From Rhizobium binae (GTDB lineage Bacteria; Pseudomonadota; Alphaproteobacteria; Rhizobiales; Rhizobiaceae), in the NCBI RefSeq assembly GCF_017357225.1, contig NZ_CP071604.1:1863001-1927000 (forward strand): a DNA stretch of 64,000 nucleotides, given 5' to 3'. A program made the position numbers and the translations under genes. Position 1 is the stretch's first letter, and each line of letters starts with the position of its first letter. The notes under the pieces were generated by a model. That model did not search any database. It saw nothing but the letters and a program-made list of their open reading frames with translations, and had not been told where the DNA came from. Shown one piece after another: positions 1 through 9,158 of this stretch.

Positions 1-588
1 TTCTACGTCGCTTTCGCCTCGGCAGCTGAAGCCCTCGGATGCGGTGACGAGTTGGAGACCGTTTCTTGTCTTTTGCTCAGGAAGCTTCATGACCGGGGCG
101 GCTACCTCGCAGCACCCGGATTGAACGGCGAGGAAGCCTTCCGGTTCCTGAATGCTTCCGCCGAGGGGCGATACGAAGATTGCCGCAAGCTCATCGCGAA
201 TCCCACGGGTCTTCTGCCAGCAGTACTGCTCGTGTTGAAGCAGATCGGACTCTCCGGTCAGGCGGAAGGTGCAATGCGAGGATTCGACCATACGAATATC
301 AACTTTTTTATCCCCGATAATTACTGCGATTTCGGAGGTCGGGTGATCGAGGATGGCACCAATTTCACCCTGAACATCGGCCACACGATCTTCACGATCG
401 ACGATGTCTCCATGGAGTGGGGGACGATCGCCGATGGCCTACGATCCAACACTGCCCTGGCGACAACCTCCGTCAGGGGCGCTTGTTTACTGGCGTCTCT
501 TCTTCGACCAGATCGGATCCCATGGTTCCTGATCGCCGAGCACCAGACAGCAGAGCCAGCCAGCACTAACGACACGGTTGAGGCATAG
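1..588 (+). CDS. Unknown protein, 3' part of a gene cut by the window edge
   Basis: The reading frame is open from base 1, so the gene begins before the window and only about 195 C-terminal residues are visible. A TTG at 52 could be read as a start but has no convincing ribosome site. I do not recognise the family. The visible part is mixed alpha/beta in character, with a short stretch reading HTNINFFIPDNYCDFGG near the middle and an acidic, Thr/Ser-rich tail. It lies upstream of two micro-genes on the same strand (118 bases away) and faces the caspase-helicase operon, so it may belong to the same accessory locus. No signal peptide or membrane segment is visible in the part seen. Confidence 0.6.
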   Translation, partial: FYVAFASAAEALGCGDELETVSCLLLRKLHDRGGYLAAPGLNGEEAFRFLNASAEGRYEDCRKLIANPTGLLPAVLLVLKQIGLSGQAEGAMRGFDHTNINFFIPDNYCDFGGRVIEDGTNFTLNIGHTIFTIDDVSMEWGTIADGLRSNTALATTSVRGACLLASLLRPDRIPWFLIAEHQTAEPASTNDTVEA

Positions 589-706: not shown

Positions 707-853
707 ATGACGGAAAGAGATAGCAGCCAAGGAAGCAGAAGCGTGACGCCACGCACGACCACTCCGGCACAGCCGGATAGGTCACCGGGCGAAGTGTCGT
801 CTAATCCGGTGACTACAGGCGACGTTACGCCGCCCTCGCTGCCAAGACGCTAG
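707..853 (+). CDS. Micro-protein 1 (48 aa), Pro/Thr/Arg-rich, paralogue of the next gene
   Basis: ATG at 707, stop TAG at 851. The product is polar and probably disordered. It contains TPRTTT at residues 14-19, a TTG at 36-38 and ends PPSLPRR. The same landmarks in the same order occur in the next small gene (886-1041), which argues that both are real, related coding sequences and not chance frames. The family is unknown. The weak purine run AATCGAGGGTG just upstream may serve as ribosome site. It points toward the caspase-helicase operon and could be a regulator, inhibitor or substrate of that protein; this is inference. Confidence 0.5.
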   Translation: MTERDSSQGSRSVTPRTTTPAQPDRSPGEVSSNPVTTGDVTPPSLPRR

Positions 854-885: not shown

Positions 886-1041
886 ATGTCCGGCAATGGA
901 AGCGATTACAGCCAGAAGAGCGCCACACCTAGAACAACAACGGTTCAGCCTCAGACTACCAGTGGTCATGGCGGGCAGCAGGGCTCCGTCCAACCACTGA
1001 CGACCGGATCGGGTGATCGGCCACCACCGCCGCGGCGCTGA
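886..1041 (+). CDS. Micro-protein 2 (51 aa), Pro/Thr/Gln-rich, paralogue of micro-protein 1
   Basis: ATG at 886 preceded by GAAGGGAAG, a good ribosome site; stop TGA at 1039-1041. It repeats the plan of the upstream gene: TPRTTT at residues 14-19, then a Gln/Thr/Gly-rich linker, PLTTG at 37-41, and a C-terminal PPPPRR. Nothing hydrophobic and no predicted fold. Its stop codon abuts the stop codon of the convergent membrane-protein gene with no base between (TGA|TCA). Only 32 bases separate it from micro-protein 1, so the two are probably co-transcribed. Function unknown; the conserved Arg sites are of interest because caspase-like proteases of bacteria often cut after Arg or Lys. Confidence 0.6.
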   Translation: MSGNGSDYSQKSATPRTTTVQPQTTSGHGGQQGSVQPLTTGSGDRPPPPRR

Positions 1042-1689
1042 TCATTTTCTCCAACCAACATCAATCTGCTTGATTTCCGACCGCGGAATGTAAGTGATGG
1101 TGGTGTCGCCCGCCGCGTTTACTTGATCGAATTCACGTCTCTCGTCGCCTTCGTATACAGCCGTCACATACATGGCGATACCGTCGTCATTCAGGATGAT
1201 CGGTTTGGTCGGGATTCCGGCCTGTTCCGGCAATGCCAGCAAACTTTCGACGATCTTACCGTTGGCAAGGTGAACTTGAACGAAGCTCCACCTCGTATCG
1301 GCTGACATTACTGATCTGAACGCCGATGTCTCGTGATCGTCGTGATAGATCTTCAGCTTCGACATTGCGGCCTTGACCCACTTCTCGAGATACTTGCGCC
1401 ACAAGAGCGCAAAGCCGACCGATCCGATGATGGCGAGCACGCTGATGATTGCGACGCTCTTGTAGTCCGACTCCACAACGGTGGTCGGCGCCCAGTAGCC
1501 GAGCTTCATCACCAGCCGCGCCACTACGTACGAGAACACCCGTCCGAGCGTTCCGAAGACCAGAACCTGCAAAAGGAAGTCTTCAGTCTTATGCTCGACC
1601 TTCTTGGTGGCCGTAGTCAGCTTGTAGCCGAGATAACCCGCCACGAGGACGATCTGGATTTCGAAGGGCAGTTTCAGGAGCTCATTCAT
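1042..1689 (-). CDS. Small membrane protein downstream of the caspase-helicase
   Basis: 215 aa starting at ATG 1689, eight bases after the stop of the caspase-helicase on the same strand, so almost certainly co-expressed with it. Three hydrophobic segments are visible (about residues 10-25, 45-65 and 75-98), followed by a soluble C-terminal half of about 115 residues rich in beta-type sequence, with a conserved-looking stretch around residues 130-205. This plan resembles DUF6338-type proteins as I remember them, but that could not be checked. A membrane partner next to a protease-helicase fusion would suit an effector that damages the membrane or a membrane anchor; that role is inferred from context only. 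Confidence 0.7.
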   Translation of the reverse strand: MNELLKLPFEIQIVLVAGYLGYKLTTATKKVEHKTEDFLLQVLVFGTLGRVFSYVVARLVMKLGYWAPTTVVESDYKSVAIISVLAIIGSVGFALLWRKYLEKWVKAAMSKLKIYHDDHETSAFRSVMSADTRWSFVQVHLANGKIVESLLALPEQAGIPTKPIILNDDGIAMYVTAVYEGDERREFDQVNAAGDTTITYIPRSEIKQIDVGWRK

Positions 1690-1697
1690 CGGGTCAT

Positions 1698-4600
1698 CTA
1701 CGCCACGAACTGGGGAATGACGGGCAGGGGTGCAGCCGCCGCTTTCGATTTGCGCTCTTCCGCCGATCGGGCTGCCCCTCGCACTACTGCAACTTTTTCC
1801 TTGTCGTCGCCGAGGAGACGAAGAATGTCACCGTCGTCAGCAGTCACGATTTTTGCGGTATCGGCCAACCCGGCTTCGACCAGGGCACAATAGTCGCCGC
1901 GCGTAAGGGTCGCTCCCGCCTCACGGGCGAGATCAGCGGCGGCGCCTGGCACGCCATAGGTTAACCGCACAGCGAGCCTCTGGATGCGCTCCGCCAAGTC
2001 GAGTTCAGGATACAGAATTTCCGCAACCCTCGCTGCAACACCGATCAGGTCCGCGGTACGCGAGGAAACGCTCCGGATCGGTCCCGCGGATCCCCCGAAC
2101 GCGCCGCCGTGCTGCCCCATCGTCACCTCGATTTCGCTCATCGACAGGCCGGAGACATACAGGAGCGTGGCCATAGCCTTTTTGGCTCTCAGAGTCGCGC
2201 TATGCTGATCGATTGCCTCTGAGTTCAGTCGGCGAATGACGTCCCATGGAACCTGTTGCTGACCAAGCATCGATGGCCATGTGTGCGGCTCCTTGTGGAT
2301 GCTCTTCCTGTTGATAGGGAAGTTGACCTCATCCAGTTCGACAGTGTTCTGAACCACCGTGAGGAGCACAGGCTCCGTTATCTGTGACGGTGGCAAATGC
2401 GAAAGAGCGTCGACAAGCCTGACGATCGATCCAACTTCGGTAGCGCTCTCTCCAGCAAGGCGACCGAGTGGCACCAGCGAGTAAAGCCCTTCGCTGTTCT
2501 TCTGGATCAGTCCATTGGCTTCCAAGTTCGAAAGTGCACGCACAAGATCGTCGTGCGACCAGCGCCATCCGTCCTGCTGTCGCCCAGCCAGGTATGCGCC
2601 GAAGCTGCTCTCAAGGAACGACACGATATCATCGCGGGCAACACCAGAGGCAGCGGAGCGAGGCAGTGCGACGAGAACGCGGACGACTAGAGAGCGGGGA
2701 TCCGTGCCGCTGGAGACAAAGCGCGAAGACAGGTCCTCCGGTTTACCAACCACGTAGCGGCGCCAGAGGTAGTCTTCTTCGCGGGCATTGATTGCCATCA
2801 GGTACGACGTGCCTTGGTCCGCGTATCCCAGACGGCCTGCACGACCAACCAGGTTCTTGTACTCGGCAACCGAATAGGGAACCGGGACTGGTCCGGGATG
2901 CTCAAGGCCCACGATAATCACACTGTTGGCGGGCGTGTTTACACCCATTGCAAGGGTGGTCGTCGCAGAAATGACCTGGAGCCCCGAGCCTTCGCGCCGG
3001 AATTCCTCCTCGATCACCTGGCGTTCGGCAGCCTGCAGGTCGGCGTTGTGGAACGCGACCCCATGCTGGAGATCCGCGATCAAATCGCGGTGCGCCTGCG
3101 AGGGGTCGAGCCGAGGCATTCGACGGAGGGCTTCGTCGGCAGGCGGCAGCCCCAACTGGGCCGCGAGATAGTTTCCAACGTTGCGGGACTCGCTCTTCGA
3201 CTCGCGGAAGACGATGACGTGCTCGCCATTGGTCGTCAGTTTGCGTAGGAGTGGAATAATCCAATCCTGCGCCGTTTCCTTCAGGCCCATCCGAACGACG
3301 ACACCACGCTCAATCTTCTCGGTCCCGTCCGAGGGATCGAGGTAGCGGAAGGAACCGTCGTAGCGCAGCACGCCCTCGCGCAGCGGTACGGGTCGCTCGG
3401 TGCGCCGAAGCAGCCTGCCGCCGAGCCATGTTTCCAAGCCGCCGGTATCGCCAATCACAGCGGAGAGGGCGATGATCTGCGGTTCGATGCCTTCACGTCT
3501 CCGCATCCTGATCAACGTCAGAATGAACTCGAGGTTGGCGCCACGTGACTGATCCGCAATCATCTGGACTTCGTCGACCACGATCGTGCCCGCCTGTGCC
3601 AAGATGTGAGGATAGGCCAGCGCCAGGGCCGCGAACTTTTCGTACGTGAGCAGGGCGATATCGTACTTGCCGCGAATCAACGGCGACACGTCGTCCGTTT
3701 CGCCGGTAGCCTCCAAAACACGGAGACCGAACCCGCCGTAAACTTTCTCGAAATGACGGCGCTTGTCCGCTACCAGCGCCTTCAACGGCAGGAGGAATAT
3801 CGCACGCTTCCGGTCCACGACCTGCCGCAGCGCAGCCAACTCGCCGACCATGGTCTTACCCGACGATGTTGGTGCGGAAACGAGAAGATGCTTTCCGTCG
3901 AGGATCCCGTAGTCGTTAATCGCTTCGACCTGAAGGGCATTAAACGAAGGTATCGCTTGTCCCCATGCGGTGACGATCTCGTCCGGAAAGCCATACGAAG
4001 CCAGGCTGGCAACATCTTCGGTGACCGCTGCCGGGCGTGCGGATGGAAACGCCGCCAGGTATCGAGCTCCCTCCGCAAAGACAGGCCAGTTCAGGCCGTC
4101 GATTTGGCCCCGCATAGCAGGGTTCTGGCTTTTCCCGATCTGGTGGGCCGCAGCCTTCACGCGGCCGGTGACATATTCCAGCACCTGGTAGACGGACAGC
4201 CTTCCGGCCTGAACGATCTCTGCCGGTCCGCGTAGTGCTTCCAATAGGTAGTAGGTAAGGAGCCCGTGACCGTGGCTCGAGAACTCCCAGGCTTCTTCCG
4301 ACGCCGCCGAGGCGGTGAGAATCAAGCGTCCGTTTCCAGCGAGCTTCTGAAGCCTAGCCTCGGTCGAAGCCATGCTGCGGGGAATGGCCGGTACCTGAAG
4401 AACCTTTGCACCGAGGCCGCCCGAAAAGCAGCAGTCGAGAAACAGGATCACCCGACGTGCCGGTATCTTCGAGAACCACTCCTGCAGCCGGTCGAGGGGA
4501 AGGGACGTGGCCTCGATATCGTAGTAGTCGGTATCGTGGACGATTAGTTCATGTGTTTGCGACCCGTGGCCGGAGAAGGCGATGACAACGGTATCTTCGG

Positions 4601-4802
4601 CATCGCACTGGGTCAGCTTATCGAGCTCAAACTCGATCCGAGAAAGGGTGGCATCCTGATCAGCCAAGAGGACGGTCGGTCCGCCAAGGGTATCGGAAAA
4701 GAGTGCGTCGAGCGCGGTCGCATCGCGAGCAGCGCAAGACAAGTCACCGATATCGGGCGACTGATAGCGGTCGACGCCAACAAACAAACCTCTGAAAGCC
4801 AT
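1698..4802 (-). CDS. Caspase-like protease fused to a Ski2-family DEAD/DEAH helicase
   Basis: 1034 aa from ATG 4802, chosen because AAAGGG lies eight bases upstream; a GTG at 4841 would add 13 residues. Residues 1-245 form a C14 caspase-like domain with the catalytic dyad visible: His79 in SGHGS and Cys125 in DCCFSG. A linker leads to a superfamily 2 helicase: Walker A APTSSGKT at about 310-317, DEVQ motif II near 420, the SAT-like LSAVIG motif, and motif VI GRAGRLG near 680. The C-terminal part has a winged-helix region and a helix-hairpin-helix segment as in Hel308/Ski2 enzymes. Both enzymatic halves look intact. It is followed by a membrane protein and opposed by two micro-genes. Caspase domains and helicases both occur in bacterial defence systems, so a nucleic-acid-gated protease is a reasonable hypothesis. 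Confidence 0.88.
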   Translation of the reverse strand: MAFRGLFVGVDRYQSPDIGDLSCAARDATALDALFSDTLGGPTVLLADQDATLSRIEFELDKLTQCDAEDTVVIAFSGHGSQTHELIVHDTDYYDIEATSLPLDRLQEWFSKIPARRVILFLDCCFSGGLGAKVLQVPAIPRSMASTEARLQKLAGNGRLILTASAASEEAWEFSSHGHGLLTYYLLEALRGPAEIVQAGRLSVYQVLEYVTGRVKAAAHQIGKSQNPAMRGQIDGLNWPVFAEGARYLAAFPSARPAAVTEDVASLASYGFPDEIVTAWGQAIPSFNALQVEAINDYGILDGKHLLVSAPTSSGKTMVGELAALRQVVDRKRAIFLLPLKALVADKRRHFEKVYGGFGLRVLEATGETDDVSPLIRGKYDIALLTYEKFAALALAYPHILAQAGTIVVDEVQMIADQSRGANLEFILTLIRMRRREGIEPQIIALSAVIGDTGGLETWLGGRLLRRTERPVPLREGVLRYDGSFRYLDPSDGTEKIERGVVVRMGLKETAQDWIIPLLRKLTTNGEHVIVFRESKSESRNVGNYLAAQLGLPPADEALRRMPRLDPSQAHRDLIADLQHGVAFHNADLQAAERQVIEEEFRREGSGLQVISATTTLAMGVNTPANSVIIVGLEHPGPVPVPYSVAEYKNLVGRAGRLGYADQGTSYLMAINAREEDYLWRRYVVGKPEDLSSRFVSSGTDPRSLVVRVLVALPRSAASGVARDDIVSFLESSFGAYLAGRQQDGWRWSHDDLVRALSNLEANGLIQKNSEGLYSLVPLGRLAGESATEVGSIVRLVDALSHLPPSQITEPVLLTVVQNTVELDEVNFPINRKSIHKEPHTWPSMLGQQQVPWDVIRRLNSEAIDQHSATLRAKKAMATLLYVSGLSMSEIEVTMGQHGGAFGGSAGPIRSVSSRTADLIGVAARVAEILYPELDLAERIQRLAVRLTYGVPGAAADLAREAGATLTRGDYCALVEAGLADTAKIVTADDGDILRLLGDDKEKVAVVRGAARSAEERKSKAAAAPLPVIPQFVA

Positions 4803-4883
4803 CGCATTCACCCTTTGTTCTTCAGGGGATTTTCCGGACACCAGCGGCGCCCGGAAAGCTCTTCTGCGACTGAACTCGCCTTT

Positions 4884-4950: not shown

Positions 4951-7900
4951 TCAGCTGCACCCGCTCGTCGCACCGCACGTGTCGCACTTCTCGCAGGTGC
5001 CGTTCCGCACCATCGTGAAGTTCTGGCATTCCGAGCACATGTTGCCGGTATAGCCCTGCATGATCGAGCGCTGGCGGCGTTCGGCTTCCACCTTCTTGGC
5101 TTCGGTCTTGGCCGTTGCCGCATCGGCTGCCGCCTTGTCGGAGAAGAGGGCAGTGGCGTCGCTGGTGATTTCTTCCATCACCTCTTCGGCGATCTCTTCC
5201 GCCAATTCCTTGGCGCGCTCCTCGTAATCGCGCTTGAAGGCGACGATTTCGGAGGTGGAGATGGCCGCGGTCGGCTCCAGCTTGCGGGCCGCAGAACCTG
5301 CAAAGGCGGTCACGGTGCCGGTGGAAGCGGCGCGGGCAGGGGCGGCGGTGGCCGCACCCTTGGGTTCGCCCGCCTGGCGTTCGCCGCCGGTGCCGGGAAC
5401 CAGCGTCGGCTTGTAGCCGCGGGTCCAGCCAGTGGAGAGCAGGTTGGTCTTGCCTTCCTGGATGCCCTTGCCGAGTGCGGTGTTGGAGAAATCAGACGTA
5501 TCGACATGGGCAAGGTCATGACGGCCGAGATAGGAGACGGCAAGCTCGCGGAACACGTAGTCGAGGATCGAGGTAGCGTTCTTGATCGCGTCGTTGCCGA
5601 TGACCATGCCGGCCGGCTCGAACTTGGTAAAGGTGAAGGCCTCGACATATTCCTCGAGCGGCACGCCATATTGCAGGCCGAGCGAGATGGCGATAGCGAA
5701 ATTGTTCATCATCGCCCGGAAGGCAGCCCCTTCCTTGTGCATGTCGATGAAGATCTCGCCGAGGCGGCCGTCACCGAATTCGCCGGTTCTGAGATAAACC
5801 TTGTGTCCGCCGACGGCGGCCTTTTGGGTGTAACCCTGGCGGCGGTTCGGCAGCTTCTCGCGTTCGCGCGAAACTCGTTCGATCACCCGCTCGATGATCT
5901 TCTCGGTGATGGTGACGGCCTGCGCGGCGACCGGCGCCTGCAGCAGTTCTTCCAGCGCATCCTCGTCGTCCCCGTCCTCGATCAGCGAGGCGTTGAGCGG
6001 CTGCGACAGCTTGGAGCCGTCGCGATAGAGCGCGTTGGCCTTCAGGCCGAGCTTCCATGAGAGCATATAGGCGTTCTTGCAATCCTCGACGGTCGCCTCG
6101 TTCGGCATGTTGATCGTCTTGGAGATCGCGCCAGAGATGAAGGGCTGGGCAGCCGCCATCATGCGGATATGGCTTTCCACCGAGAGATAGCGCCTGCCAA
6201 TCTTGCCGCAAGGATTCGCGCAATCGAAAACCGGCAGATGCTCGGCCTTGAGGAAGGGCGCGCCTTCCAACGTCATCGCGCCGCAGACATGGATGTTGGC
6301 CGCTTCGATGTCCTTCTTCGAGAAGCCCATATGGTCGAGCAGGTTGAAGCTCATGTCGGATAGCTGCTCGTCGGAAACCTTCAGCGTCTCCTTCAGGAAG
6401 TCGGCGCCGAGCGTCCACTGGTTGAAGACGAACTTGATGTCGAAGGCGCTCTTCAGCGCGGCGTTGACGGCTTCCACCTTCTCGTCGGTCAGGCCCTTGG
6501 CCTTCAGCGTCGACGGATTGATCGCCGGCGCCTGGTTCAGGTTGCCGTGACCGACGGCATAGGCCTCGATCTCGGCGATCTGGCTTTCCGAATAGCCGAG
6601 CGTGCGCAGCGCTTCCGGCACGGCGCGGTTGATGATCTTGAAGTAGCCGCCGCCGGCCAGCTTCTTGAACTTGACGAGGGCGAAGTCGGGCTCGATGCCC
6701 GTCGTGTCGCAATCCATGACGAGGCCGATCGTGCCGGTGGGCGCGATGACCGAGACCTGGGCATTGCGGTAGCCATGCTTTTCGCCGAGCTCGAGCGCCT
6801 TGTCCCAGGCCGATTTGGCATGGACAGCGAGATCCTGGTCGGGGTTTTCCGAATGGATCAGCGCGACCGGATGGATCGACAGCGCCTCATAGCCGGAGGT
6901 TTCACCGTAAGCGGCGCGGCGATGGTTGCGGATGACCCGCAGCATGCTCTCGCGGTTCGGCGCGAAGTTCGGGAACGGGCCGAGTTCGCCGGCGATCTCG
7001 GCCGAAGTCGCATAGCAGATGCCGGTCATGATCGCCGTCAGCGAACCGGCGATGGCGCGGGCCTCAGTGGAGTCGTAGGGAATGCCCGACGACATCAGCA
7101 GGCCGCCGATATTGGCGTAGCCGAGGCCGAGCGTGCGGTATTCGTAGGAGAGTTCGGCAATGCGCTTCGACGGGAACTGCGCCATCATCACCGAGATTTC
7201 GAGCACGACTGTCCACAGGCGAACCGCATGTTCGTAATCGCCGATATTGATGCGCTTGGTGGCCTTGTCCTTGAACTGCAAGAGGTTCAGCGAGGCGAGG
7301 TTGCAGGCCGTGTCGTCGAGGAACATGTATTCCGAGCACGGGTTAGAGCCGCGAATCGGGCCGCCGGCCGGCGACGTGTGCCAGTCGTTCATCGTCGTGT
7401 TGAAGTGGATGCCCGGATCGGCAGACGCCCAGGCGGCATAGGAAATCGTTTCCCAGAGGTCGCGCGCCTTCAGCGTCTTCATTACCCGGCCGTCCTTGCG
7501 GGCGGTCAGCTTCCATTCGCCGTCATTCTCGACGGCGCGCAGGAAATCGTCCTTGATCGAGACGGAGTTGTTGGAATTCTGGCCGGAGACCGTGAGATAG
7601 GCTTCCGAATCCCAATCGGTGTCGTAGGTCTTGAATTCGAGATCCTTATAGCCCTGGCGGGCGAACTGGATGACGCGCTGGACGTAGTTTTCCGGAACCT
7701 GATCCTTCTTGGCAGCGCGGATCTCGCGCTTCAGGGCAGGGTTCTTGGCCGGATCGAAGCAATCGCCATTGTCGCCTTCGCAATTGAAGCAGGCCTTCAT
7801 GATCGCCTTCAGGTGCCTGGCGACGATCTTCGAGCCGGTGACCAGAGCTGCAACCTTCTGCTCTTCCTTGACCTTCCAGTTGATGTATTCCTCGATATCG

Positions 7901-8763
7901 GGATGGTCGATATCGACGACCACCATCTTGGCGGCGCGGCGCGTCGTGCCGCCCGACTTGATGGCGCCGGCGGCCCGGTCGCCGATCTTCAGGAAGCTCA
8001 TCAGGCCGGAGGAGCGGCCGCCGCCGGAAAGCTTTTCGCCTTCGCCGCGCAGCATGGAGAAGTTGGAGCCGGTGCCGGAGCCGTATTTGAACAGGCGCGC
8101 CTCACGCACCCACAGATCCATGATCCCGCCTTCGTTGACGAGATCGTCCTCGACCGACTGGATGAAGCAGGCGTGCGGCTGCGGGTGTTCGTAGGCAGAC
8201 TTGGATTTGGTCAGCTTGCCGGTGAAGGGGTCGACGTAGAAATGGCCCTGGCCGGGACCGTCGATGCCATAGGCCCAGTGCAGGCCGGTGTTGAACCACT
8301 GCGGCGAGTTCGGCGCGACGCGCTGGGTGGCGAGCATATAGGCAAGCTCGTCCTTGAAGGCGGCAGCATCTTCTTCCGAAGAGAAATAGCCGCCCTTCCA
8401 GCCCCAATAGGTCCAGGTGCCGGCGAGACGGTCGAAGACCTGGCGCGCATCGATTTCGGAGCCGGTCTGTTCGTCTTTCGGCAGGTTCTTCAGCGCGGCA
8501 TCGTCTGGAACGGAGCGCCACAGGAAGGACGGAACGTCGTTTTCCTCGACCTTCTTCAGGCGGGTGGGAACGCCGGCCTTGCGGAAATACTTCTGCGCCA
8601 GAACGTCGGTGGCGACCTGCGAGAACTGCGCGGGAACGTCGATATTCTCGAGGCGGAAGACGATCGACCCATCCGGGTTCTTGATCTCGCTGGTCGCCTT
8701 GCGGAATTCAATATCCGCATAGGCGCCTTGGCCGGCCTTCGTGAAACGACGTTCGATGCGCAT
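4951..8763 (-). CDS. nrdJ: Adenosylcobalamin-dependent (class II) ribonucleoside-diphosphate reductase
   Basis: 1270 aa from ATG 8763, preceded by GCGAGGTC; upstream in-frame codons would add 36 atypical residues. It reduces ribonucleotides to deoxyribonucleotides using coenzyme B12, without oxygen or a separate radical subunit, in the cytoplasm. Visible hallmarks are the [11 protein letters not shown] region with the catalytic-site cysteine, the [17 protein letters not shown] segment, and a C-terminal cysteine cluster ([13 protein letters not shown]) that acts as a thiol shuttle or zinc site. Length agrees with the long rhizobial form. It stands alone, with a 600-base intergenic region upstream that holds an NrdR-box-like palindrome. 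Confidence 0.97.
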
Positions 8764-9158
8764 AGTCTTGACCTCGCGTTGGCGCCTGTCCCCAGGGCGC
8801 AAATTTCCTATCCGGCGGCACATTGTCGTCGTGCAGCCAGTCTCGTTTCCGTATCGTGACAGGGGTGTCATCCGGAGATGTCCTTCCTGTATCTTGTGGT
8901 GATGGTGGCTGCAAACGCTAAATATAGTATTAACAGCTTATTATCGCCAGTCCTGATGTCACTTTTTTTGGAGGCAGAAAACCGCGCAGAGTTCCCTGCG
9001 GGCCAGAACCGGTGCCGGCGCAATGCCCCCAATCTGCGTCTTGTTTTTCAAAGGGAACCGGGCTCGTTACCTCCGGTCCTGTCGCCGCCGCAACATCAGG
9101 AACAGTAAAGTTTGAAACGGCTGATTCCGTCAAGGGCTGGTTTTTAATTGAATGGTAA

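Follow-up and report, generated by a model that had tools for sequence, protein, structure and literature searches.

The described systems that appear nearest to the caspase–helicase fusion of Rhizobium binae reported here are the protease-HamA Hachiman systems and Canu, judged from the parts of the cited papers that were consulted. In protease-HamA/HamB Hachiman, apparently the nearest system with a tested mechanism, DNA and ATP hydrolysis drive the proteolytic activation of a partner nuclease, HamM (Tuck 2025, PMC12799240). In Canu (CanABC, caspase-nuclease), a bacterial caspase activates its partner in antiphage defence (PMC12799240). A two-gene EACC1-caspase system combines an N-terminal caspase with many alternative C-terminal parts, and the gene of a small membrane protein lies beside it (Kaur 2020, PMC7159879). 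Surveys have tallied helicase domains on caspase homologues (PMC3501461, PMC8283722, PMC7475262); two of them (PMC3501461, PMC8283722) count helicase activity in 12 prokaryotic sequences, and DEAD and Helicase_C domains in three cyanobacterial orthocaspases each, and the parts consulted give domain counts and no system, partner or function. Our literature search, which had preprints and most subscription journals outside its scope, found no caspase–helicase fusion described as a system. The fusion analysed here is encoded within 64,000 nucleotides of the R. binae genome (NCBI RefSeq assembly GCF_017357225.1, contig NZ_CP071604.1, positions 1,863,001–1,927,000 of the forward strand), hereafter the window, from whose first letter positions are counted. 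It carries a caspase-like protease and a Hel308-type helicase in a single chain, has relatives in many bacterial phyla and may form the invariant centre of a mobile defence system.

Similar to Hachiman (PMC12799240), where a helicase and a protease act together and a neighbouring effector is cut, the window system would pair these two activities, and its effector may be cut as well. The Hachiman protease is trypsin-like, fused to HamA and directed at HamM, whereas the window has a caspase-like protease joined directly to a Hel308-type helicase. PADLOC profiles of HamB match the helicase core (best 108 bits) over part of the profile. Scans of the window neighbours turned up neither HamA nor HamM, the membrane-protein gene next to the fusion has no PADLOC or Pfam match, and the ten genes to the left contain no HamA-type Pfam family; membership in Hachiman was rejected because no HamA gene lies beside the helicase. 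In Canu, unlike in the window, CanA has an Ig-like fold in place of a helicase and acts with a nuclease partner (PMC12799240); general family scans of the window neighbours, in which no CanC model was used, found no nuclease family. The window caspase matches the NCBIfam EACC1-type caspase model NF047832 at 97 bits, below the cut-off of 140. The membrane-protein gene of the EACC1 system, as far as the parts consulted describe it, is located 5' of the caspase gene and encodes one helix, whereas that of the window is located 3' and encodes a DUF6338-like protein with three predicted helices. The low score and the ribonucleotide reductase gene found 5' of the fusion led us to reject membership in this system too. 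Finally, the helicase region matches nearly the full Hel308 model but differs from Hel308, HELQ and Pol theta in its motif II and in the added N-terminal caspase.

The caspase–helicase fusion protein

The fusion gene (positions 1698..4802, minus strand) encodes an intact protein of 1034 residues, in agreement with a preliminary description of this DNA that was made from the letters and their open reading frames (ORFs) and that had also claimed an intact His79/Cys125 dyad and a complete superfamily 2 helicase. The N-terminal caspase domain (residues 6–230, positions 4113..4787, minus strand) is recognized by Pfam Peptidase_C14 with an E-value of 5e-16 and 59.5 bits against a cut-off of 21.4. 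The codons of His79 (4566–4568, minus strand) and Cys125 (4428–4430, minus strand), placed by counting from the ATG at 4802 and checked in the sequence, complete the dyad, and this combination of a C14 domain with a His/Cys pair classes the domain, by sequence, as a caspase-like peptidase. The helicase region (residues 283–1017, positions 1752..3956, minus strand) contains Pfam DEAD (residues 290–450, E 4e-22) and Helicase_C (residues 579–659, E 9e-9) domains, and its entire length matches an NCBIfam Hel308-type model (E 1.6e-80, model positions 20–710 of 739). With a helicase core followed by downstream domains in the Hel308 order, it can be assigned to the Hel308-type superfamily 2 helicases. 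Scores are below the naming cut-offs of the Hel308-type equivalog models (271 bits vs 887 and 206 vs 1200), and the helicase is taken to be related to Hel308, yet not the same protein. Hel308 structures are matched by the sequence of the helicase region, and Foldseek analysis of a predicted model of modest quality (pLDDT 64) places Hel308 and Pol theta first, with about 770 aligned columns.

Motif II of Hel308 is DExH. The corresponding motif in the window protein is of the DExQ type, and its glutamine, Q413, is kept in 185 of 188 full-length relatives. The preliminary description had considered that loss of the catalytic residues in most homologues would speak against its proposal; instead, H79, C125, K316, D410, E411, R654 and R657 are present in all 188. 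This set combines 77 proteins from loci (the window's own included) with 111 from a protein search and includes about ten near-identical copies of one island. The seeds of the locus search held the catalytic-site peptide LDCCFSGG, so the conservation of C125 in the loci is partly built in; the conservation of H79, and the relatives from the protein search, are free of this effect.

Distribution and mobility

The protein search, in which the 7996 candidates with most shared words were scored and 120 were listed, produced 1782 homologues at E ≤ 1e-3, and a chance origin of the fusion is thereby excluded. The same domain order recurs in many genomes, in support of the preliminary description. With one genome per species searched, 148 stretches encode a relative, the best 80 of which form the locus set (loci are identified below by L numbers; genes were called with a simple in-house caller, which called no fusion gene in L034). 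According to record titles, the relatives come from Pseudomonadota, Actinomycetota, Cyanobacteriota, Bacteroidota, Bacillota, Chloroflexota, Planctomycetota, Acidobacteriota, Gemmatimonadota, Deinococcota and other phyla; many of the loci are metagenome bins, one of them archaeal. Closer to R. binae the distribution is patchy: one of 297 genomes of the family, the window's own, has a match at E ≤ 1e-100, and two of 397 genomes of the order have one at E ≤ 1e-60. Plasmids carry the fusion in 12 of 72,556 records. None of 50,697 phage records matched and one locus lies on a viral contig, and a phage origin was rejected on these grounds.

An island (L009–L015, L017, L022 and L028) is present in Bradyrhizobium, Rhodopseudomonas, Xanthobacter and Sphingomonas, in several isolates and several bins. 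Nine loci match L011 at 98.9–99.98% identity over 14,968–15,003 bases in eight of them and over 6974 bases in the Rhodopseudomonas bin L009, where the match is stopped by the end of the contig. The boundary of the match falls within 36 bases of a single point, immediately past a phage-integrase-family gene, and the cargo includes an IrrE/UvrD/PDDEXK gene and a DUF2158 gene. In the window, the 5' neighbour of the fusion is a class II ribonucleotide reductase gene (4951–8871), and a relative of this gene is found near the caspase-helicase also in L006, L007, L019 and L020. Because of this recurrence, a shared insertion site is suggested.

Partner genes

The commonest partner of the fusion is a DUF2158 (YodC-like) gene, located 2–11 bases 5' of it in 20 of 80 loci; its identity was checked by Pfam in L028 and L056, and 12 of the 21 loci in its cluster are copies or near relatives of one island. 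The window has no such partner, the ribonucleotide reductase gene occupying the 5' side instead. In L008, L032, L088 and L089 the 5' position is taken by a gene for a 201-residue protein of no assigned kind, a relative of which is found 3' of the fusion in L064.

Eight bases after the stop of the window fusion, as the preliminary description had noted, begins the gene of a 215-residue membrane protein (1042..1689, minus strand). A member of the same family follows the fusion at the same distance in L006, and in L087 a shortened version is followed by an insertion element, with no peptide gene seen there. In L019, L021 and L035 the fusion is preceded, on its 5' side, by a true DUF6338 gene. That the window membrane protein is a dedicated partner, as had been claimed, is borne out among its close relatives, where 11 of 35 homologues apparently share a genome with one of the 120 listed caspase-helicases (matched indirectly). 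It is not borne out in the fetched loci, where three of the 86 caspase-helicase genes called are linked to the window family and another three to a more distantly related DUF6338 gene. A role as the family-wide partner was rejected for this reason, common as the linkage is among close relatives.

Partners were mapped onto a FastTree tree of 65 fusion proteins, 22 of them labelled. At least two changes are required for the DUF2158 label, and as many for the DUF6338-type label; two of the label changes are forced by starred branches. The labels were assigned by us; L087 was labelled for its membrane gene alone, and a later check confirmed the label of L088 and L089. Since both labels need two changes, our reading is that the fusion family has probably gained partner genes repeatedly.

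The DUF6338-like membrane protein and proline-rich peptides

In the predicted structure of the window membrane protein, a C-terminal β-domain accompanies three long helices that are taken to span the membrane. Pfam DUF6338 (PF19865, cut-off 26.5 bits) does not match it; a relative in L103 with 42% identity reaches 17.7 bits, a relative in L104 has no match, and the partner in L019 scores 127 bits. The window protein is probably a divergent, DUF6338-like one. Matches of the model to solved structures are weak and mostly Sm-like (best E 0.02), and no fold is assigned for that reason. Among viral models it has a single match, an uncharacterised phage protein (E 3e-5).

Two small genes, s1 (707..853, plus strand; 48 residues, or 56 from an earlier ATG at 683) and s2 (886..1041, plus strand; 51 residues), converge on the membrane-protein gene, and the s2 stop abuts the stop of that gene with zero bases between. 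Both encode proline-rich peptides, which resemble each other and share a TTG..PP..RR ending, and both are present in L006. Their coding nature is supported by comparison with L006 over short alignments (s2, dN 0.08 and dS 2.3 over 50 codons; s1, dN 0.32 and dS 0.95 over 48 codons) and by a recorded protein of Rhizobium bangladeshense that is 92% identical to s2. Cleavage after basic residues is frequent among caspase-like enzymes of this type, a preference that makes the two peptides candidate substrates of the protease. As dedicated substrates they are not supported, since the module occurs with no fusion nearby. Within the genus, the membrane-protein gene is present in 5 of 148 genomes, the window's own included, and two of the four others have only 30–31% identity. 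In those four, the gene faces one or two convergent proline-rich small ORFs, and no caspase-helicase was found in the 16–17 kb around it, the remainder of each genome not being searched.

A similar arrangement exists on one strand. In L019, L021 and L035, the DUF6338 gene is followed by a same-strand peptide ending in TTGSGVKPP(P)SKP. Of 16,468 small ORFs in the fetched loci, 11 have a TTG..PP..[RK] ending; all but one of these neighbour a DUF6338-like gene, a count that is descriptive, the motif having been drawn from the same examples. In a Pfam-family search, DUF6338 exceeded its cut-off in 8 of 190 genomes of the class. A proline-rich small ORF lies directly 3' on the same strand of 9 of 11 DUF6338 genes (those of the class search plus L019, L021 and L035) compared with 64 of 1251 control genes (Fisher p 2e-10), where three of the 11 are close relatives (6 of 8 without them), the criteria were set after the first examples had been seen and the controls are unmatched for base composition. 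Where they are followed by proline-rich small ORFs, as in L107, L108, L109, L110, L111 and L113, the DUF6338 genes make a candidate for a new two-gene family. In L102 (5443–16651), the module lies near an integrase gene and a gene weakly similar to a phage minor tail protein (below the Pfam cut-off), perhaps within a prophage. A phage-tail gene initially read in L103 was dropped when a later check did not bear it out.

Defence genes near the fusion

Three sets of neighbours place the fusion near defence genes; the preliminary description had counted a lack of enrichment there against its proposal. In the fetched loci, a further caspase gene is present beside 7 of 86 caspase-helicases (in the window, L020, L032, L068, L070, L088 and L089), a count that left out a 160-residue case (L051), two fragments of the fusion (L078 and L079) and the fusion itself (L090). 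Five of these loci (L020, L032, L070, L088 and L089) also contain a TIR gene, which in L020 and L088 exceeds the cut-off of Pfam ThsB_TIR (Thoeris-type). Nine of the 12 plasmid loci were inspected, and eight have defence-type genes within 9 kb, by product name and our own reading and counted without a control set: TIR with caspase, multiubiquitin/ThiF/DUF6527, AbiEii, ABC-three component, phospholipase D with Fic, restriction-methylation with SAVED, and Piwi. The ninth has no defence-type product name.

At E ≤ 1e-15, proteins encoded up to three genes from the fusion matched 184 PADLOC families (148 proteins) and those at least six genes away matched 62 (150 proteins); this comparison counts families, not proteins, its controls come from the same 20-kb loci, and the near set is larger (49,322 residues vs 39,507), so part of the difference may be one of size. 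Both lists were dereplicated and kept under 50,000 residues, so that 148 clusters out of 294 entered the proximal list and 150 out of 365 the distal one. Among the 25 families listed per set, the near set includes ThsA, type I and III restriction, Qat, SngB, AbiE and HmaB, and the far set pAgo, type I restriction, DruE and PD-T4-6.

Proposed mechanism and alternatives

By analogy with protease-HamA Hachiman and from the anatomy of the protein, we propose that the fusion forms the unchanging part of a mobile defence system in which the helicase senses DNA, the caspase is activated, and exchangeable partners or host proteins are cut, a reading to which we give an even chance of being correct. 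The Hel308-type half would load on and move along abnormal or foreign DNA; this binding or movement would turn on the caspase half; and the active caspase would cut partner or host proteins, resulting in growth stop or death of the infected cell. The partners would be exchangeable: here the DUF6338-like membrane protein and the two proline-rich peptides, elsewhere the DUF2158 protein, the 201-residue protein or none evident. In R. binae, the membrane protein would be the expected effector or a membrane anchor, restrained via the peptides or its β-domain until the protease acts. Sequence comparisons show a mobile fusion with intact active sites and nearby defence genes, as well as partners that, on our reading, were gained repeatedly, and we infer a role in defence. 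The limits of the plasmid count and of the PADLOC comparison weigh against this reading, as do several other points: phage records do not contain the fusion, no partner is universal, the membrane/peptide module is a separate unit that occurs with no caspase-helicase nearby, and cleavage of the peptides or of the membrane protein is our proposal. A wider version of this reading, in which an antiviral system that is mobile and widespread uses a one-protein Hel308-type sensor and caspase-like protease to gate exchangeable effectors by proteolysis, including an undescribed membrane/peptide pair (the DUF6338 module) that also works alone, is tentative and, taken as a whole, rather doubtful.

The same observations can be arranged differently. 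In many loci the neighbours of the fusion fall in no shared cluster, and the DUF6338/peptide module exists elsewhere without it, as would be expected if the fusion were a self-contained, one-gene defence protein whose caspase cuts host proteins or turns on the helicase by cleaving its own chain, the membrane, peptide and DUF2158 genes being independent. This is unlikely, given that partners have apparently joined repeatedly in distant branches and that the DUF2158 and membrane-protein genes lie at the short distances described above. Repair helicases, Hel308 and Pol theta, are the closest relatives of the helicase by sequence and by model, and a class II ribonucleotide reductase gene is near the fusion in five loci; both would suit a DNA-damage or genome-stability device in which the helicase processes forks as Hel308 does, the caspase trims or destroys repair proteins or itself, and the proximity of defence genes reflects hitch-hiking on mobile DNA. 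However, the fusion is rare and patchy, unlike a housekeeping repair gene, and is carried by plasmids and a near-identical island with defence genes nearby, which makes such a device quite improbable. Least of all do we expect an addiction module, with the membrane protein as toxin, the peptides as antidote and the protease as guard. The recurrent pairing of DUF6338-type genes with small proline-rich ORFs and the orientation of the window-type peptides, opposite to the membrane gene, would fit it, but it offers no obvious place for a helicase, and the window copy resides on a 4.5-Mb contig of its genome, not a plasmid-sized one.

Other features of the locus

An inverted repeat (CCGG..CCGG; 4831..4855, minus strand) lies just 5' of the fusion gene. 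It was seen by eye in L005, L006, L007 and L087, with paired differences in L006, and is possibly an operator or a leader hairpin. Because it sits 5' of the gene and its window version has one genome match with up to two mismatches allowed, regulated expression of the fusion is suggested. A GTG at 4841 could serve as an alternative start, giving 1047 residues; in L006 one base is missing just before the ATG and this longer frame is not kept.

At the left edge, the window includes the 3' part (1..588, plus strand) of a second caspase-like gene, recognized by a domain match, which begins outside it and encodes 645 residues in whole (G000:C1:1861651-1863588), with a C-terminal part of no assigned family. 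It is a neighbour, perhaps outside the system; as an obligate part it was rejected, the fusion being its only relative in L006. A separate contig of the R. binae genome carries a cluster of three more caspase-domain matches (G000:C4:443975-460519). Farther to the left of the window are a patatin-like phospholipase gene and an IS21-type transposase pair (G000:C1:1850647-1851915 and 1853772-1856100, L005).

Implications

If the proposed mechanism is correct, the fusion would be a one-protein counterpart of inflammasome-like signalling, in which nucleic-acid sensing and caspase activation reside in one chain, and it would be present in many bacterial phyla. It would also provide an immediately testable model and a pointer to an uncharacterised two-gene family composed of DUF6338 and a proline-rich peptide.

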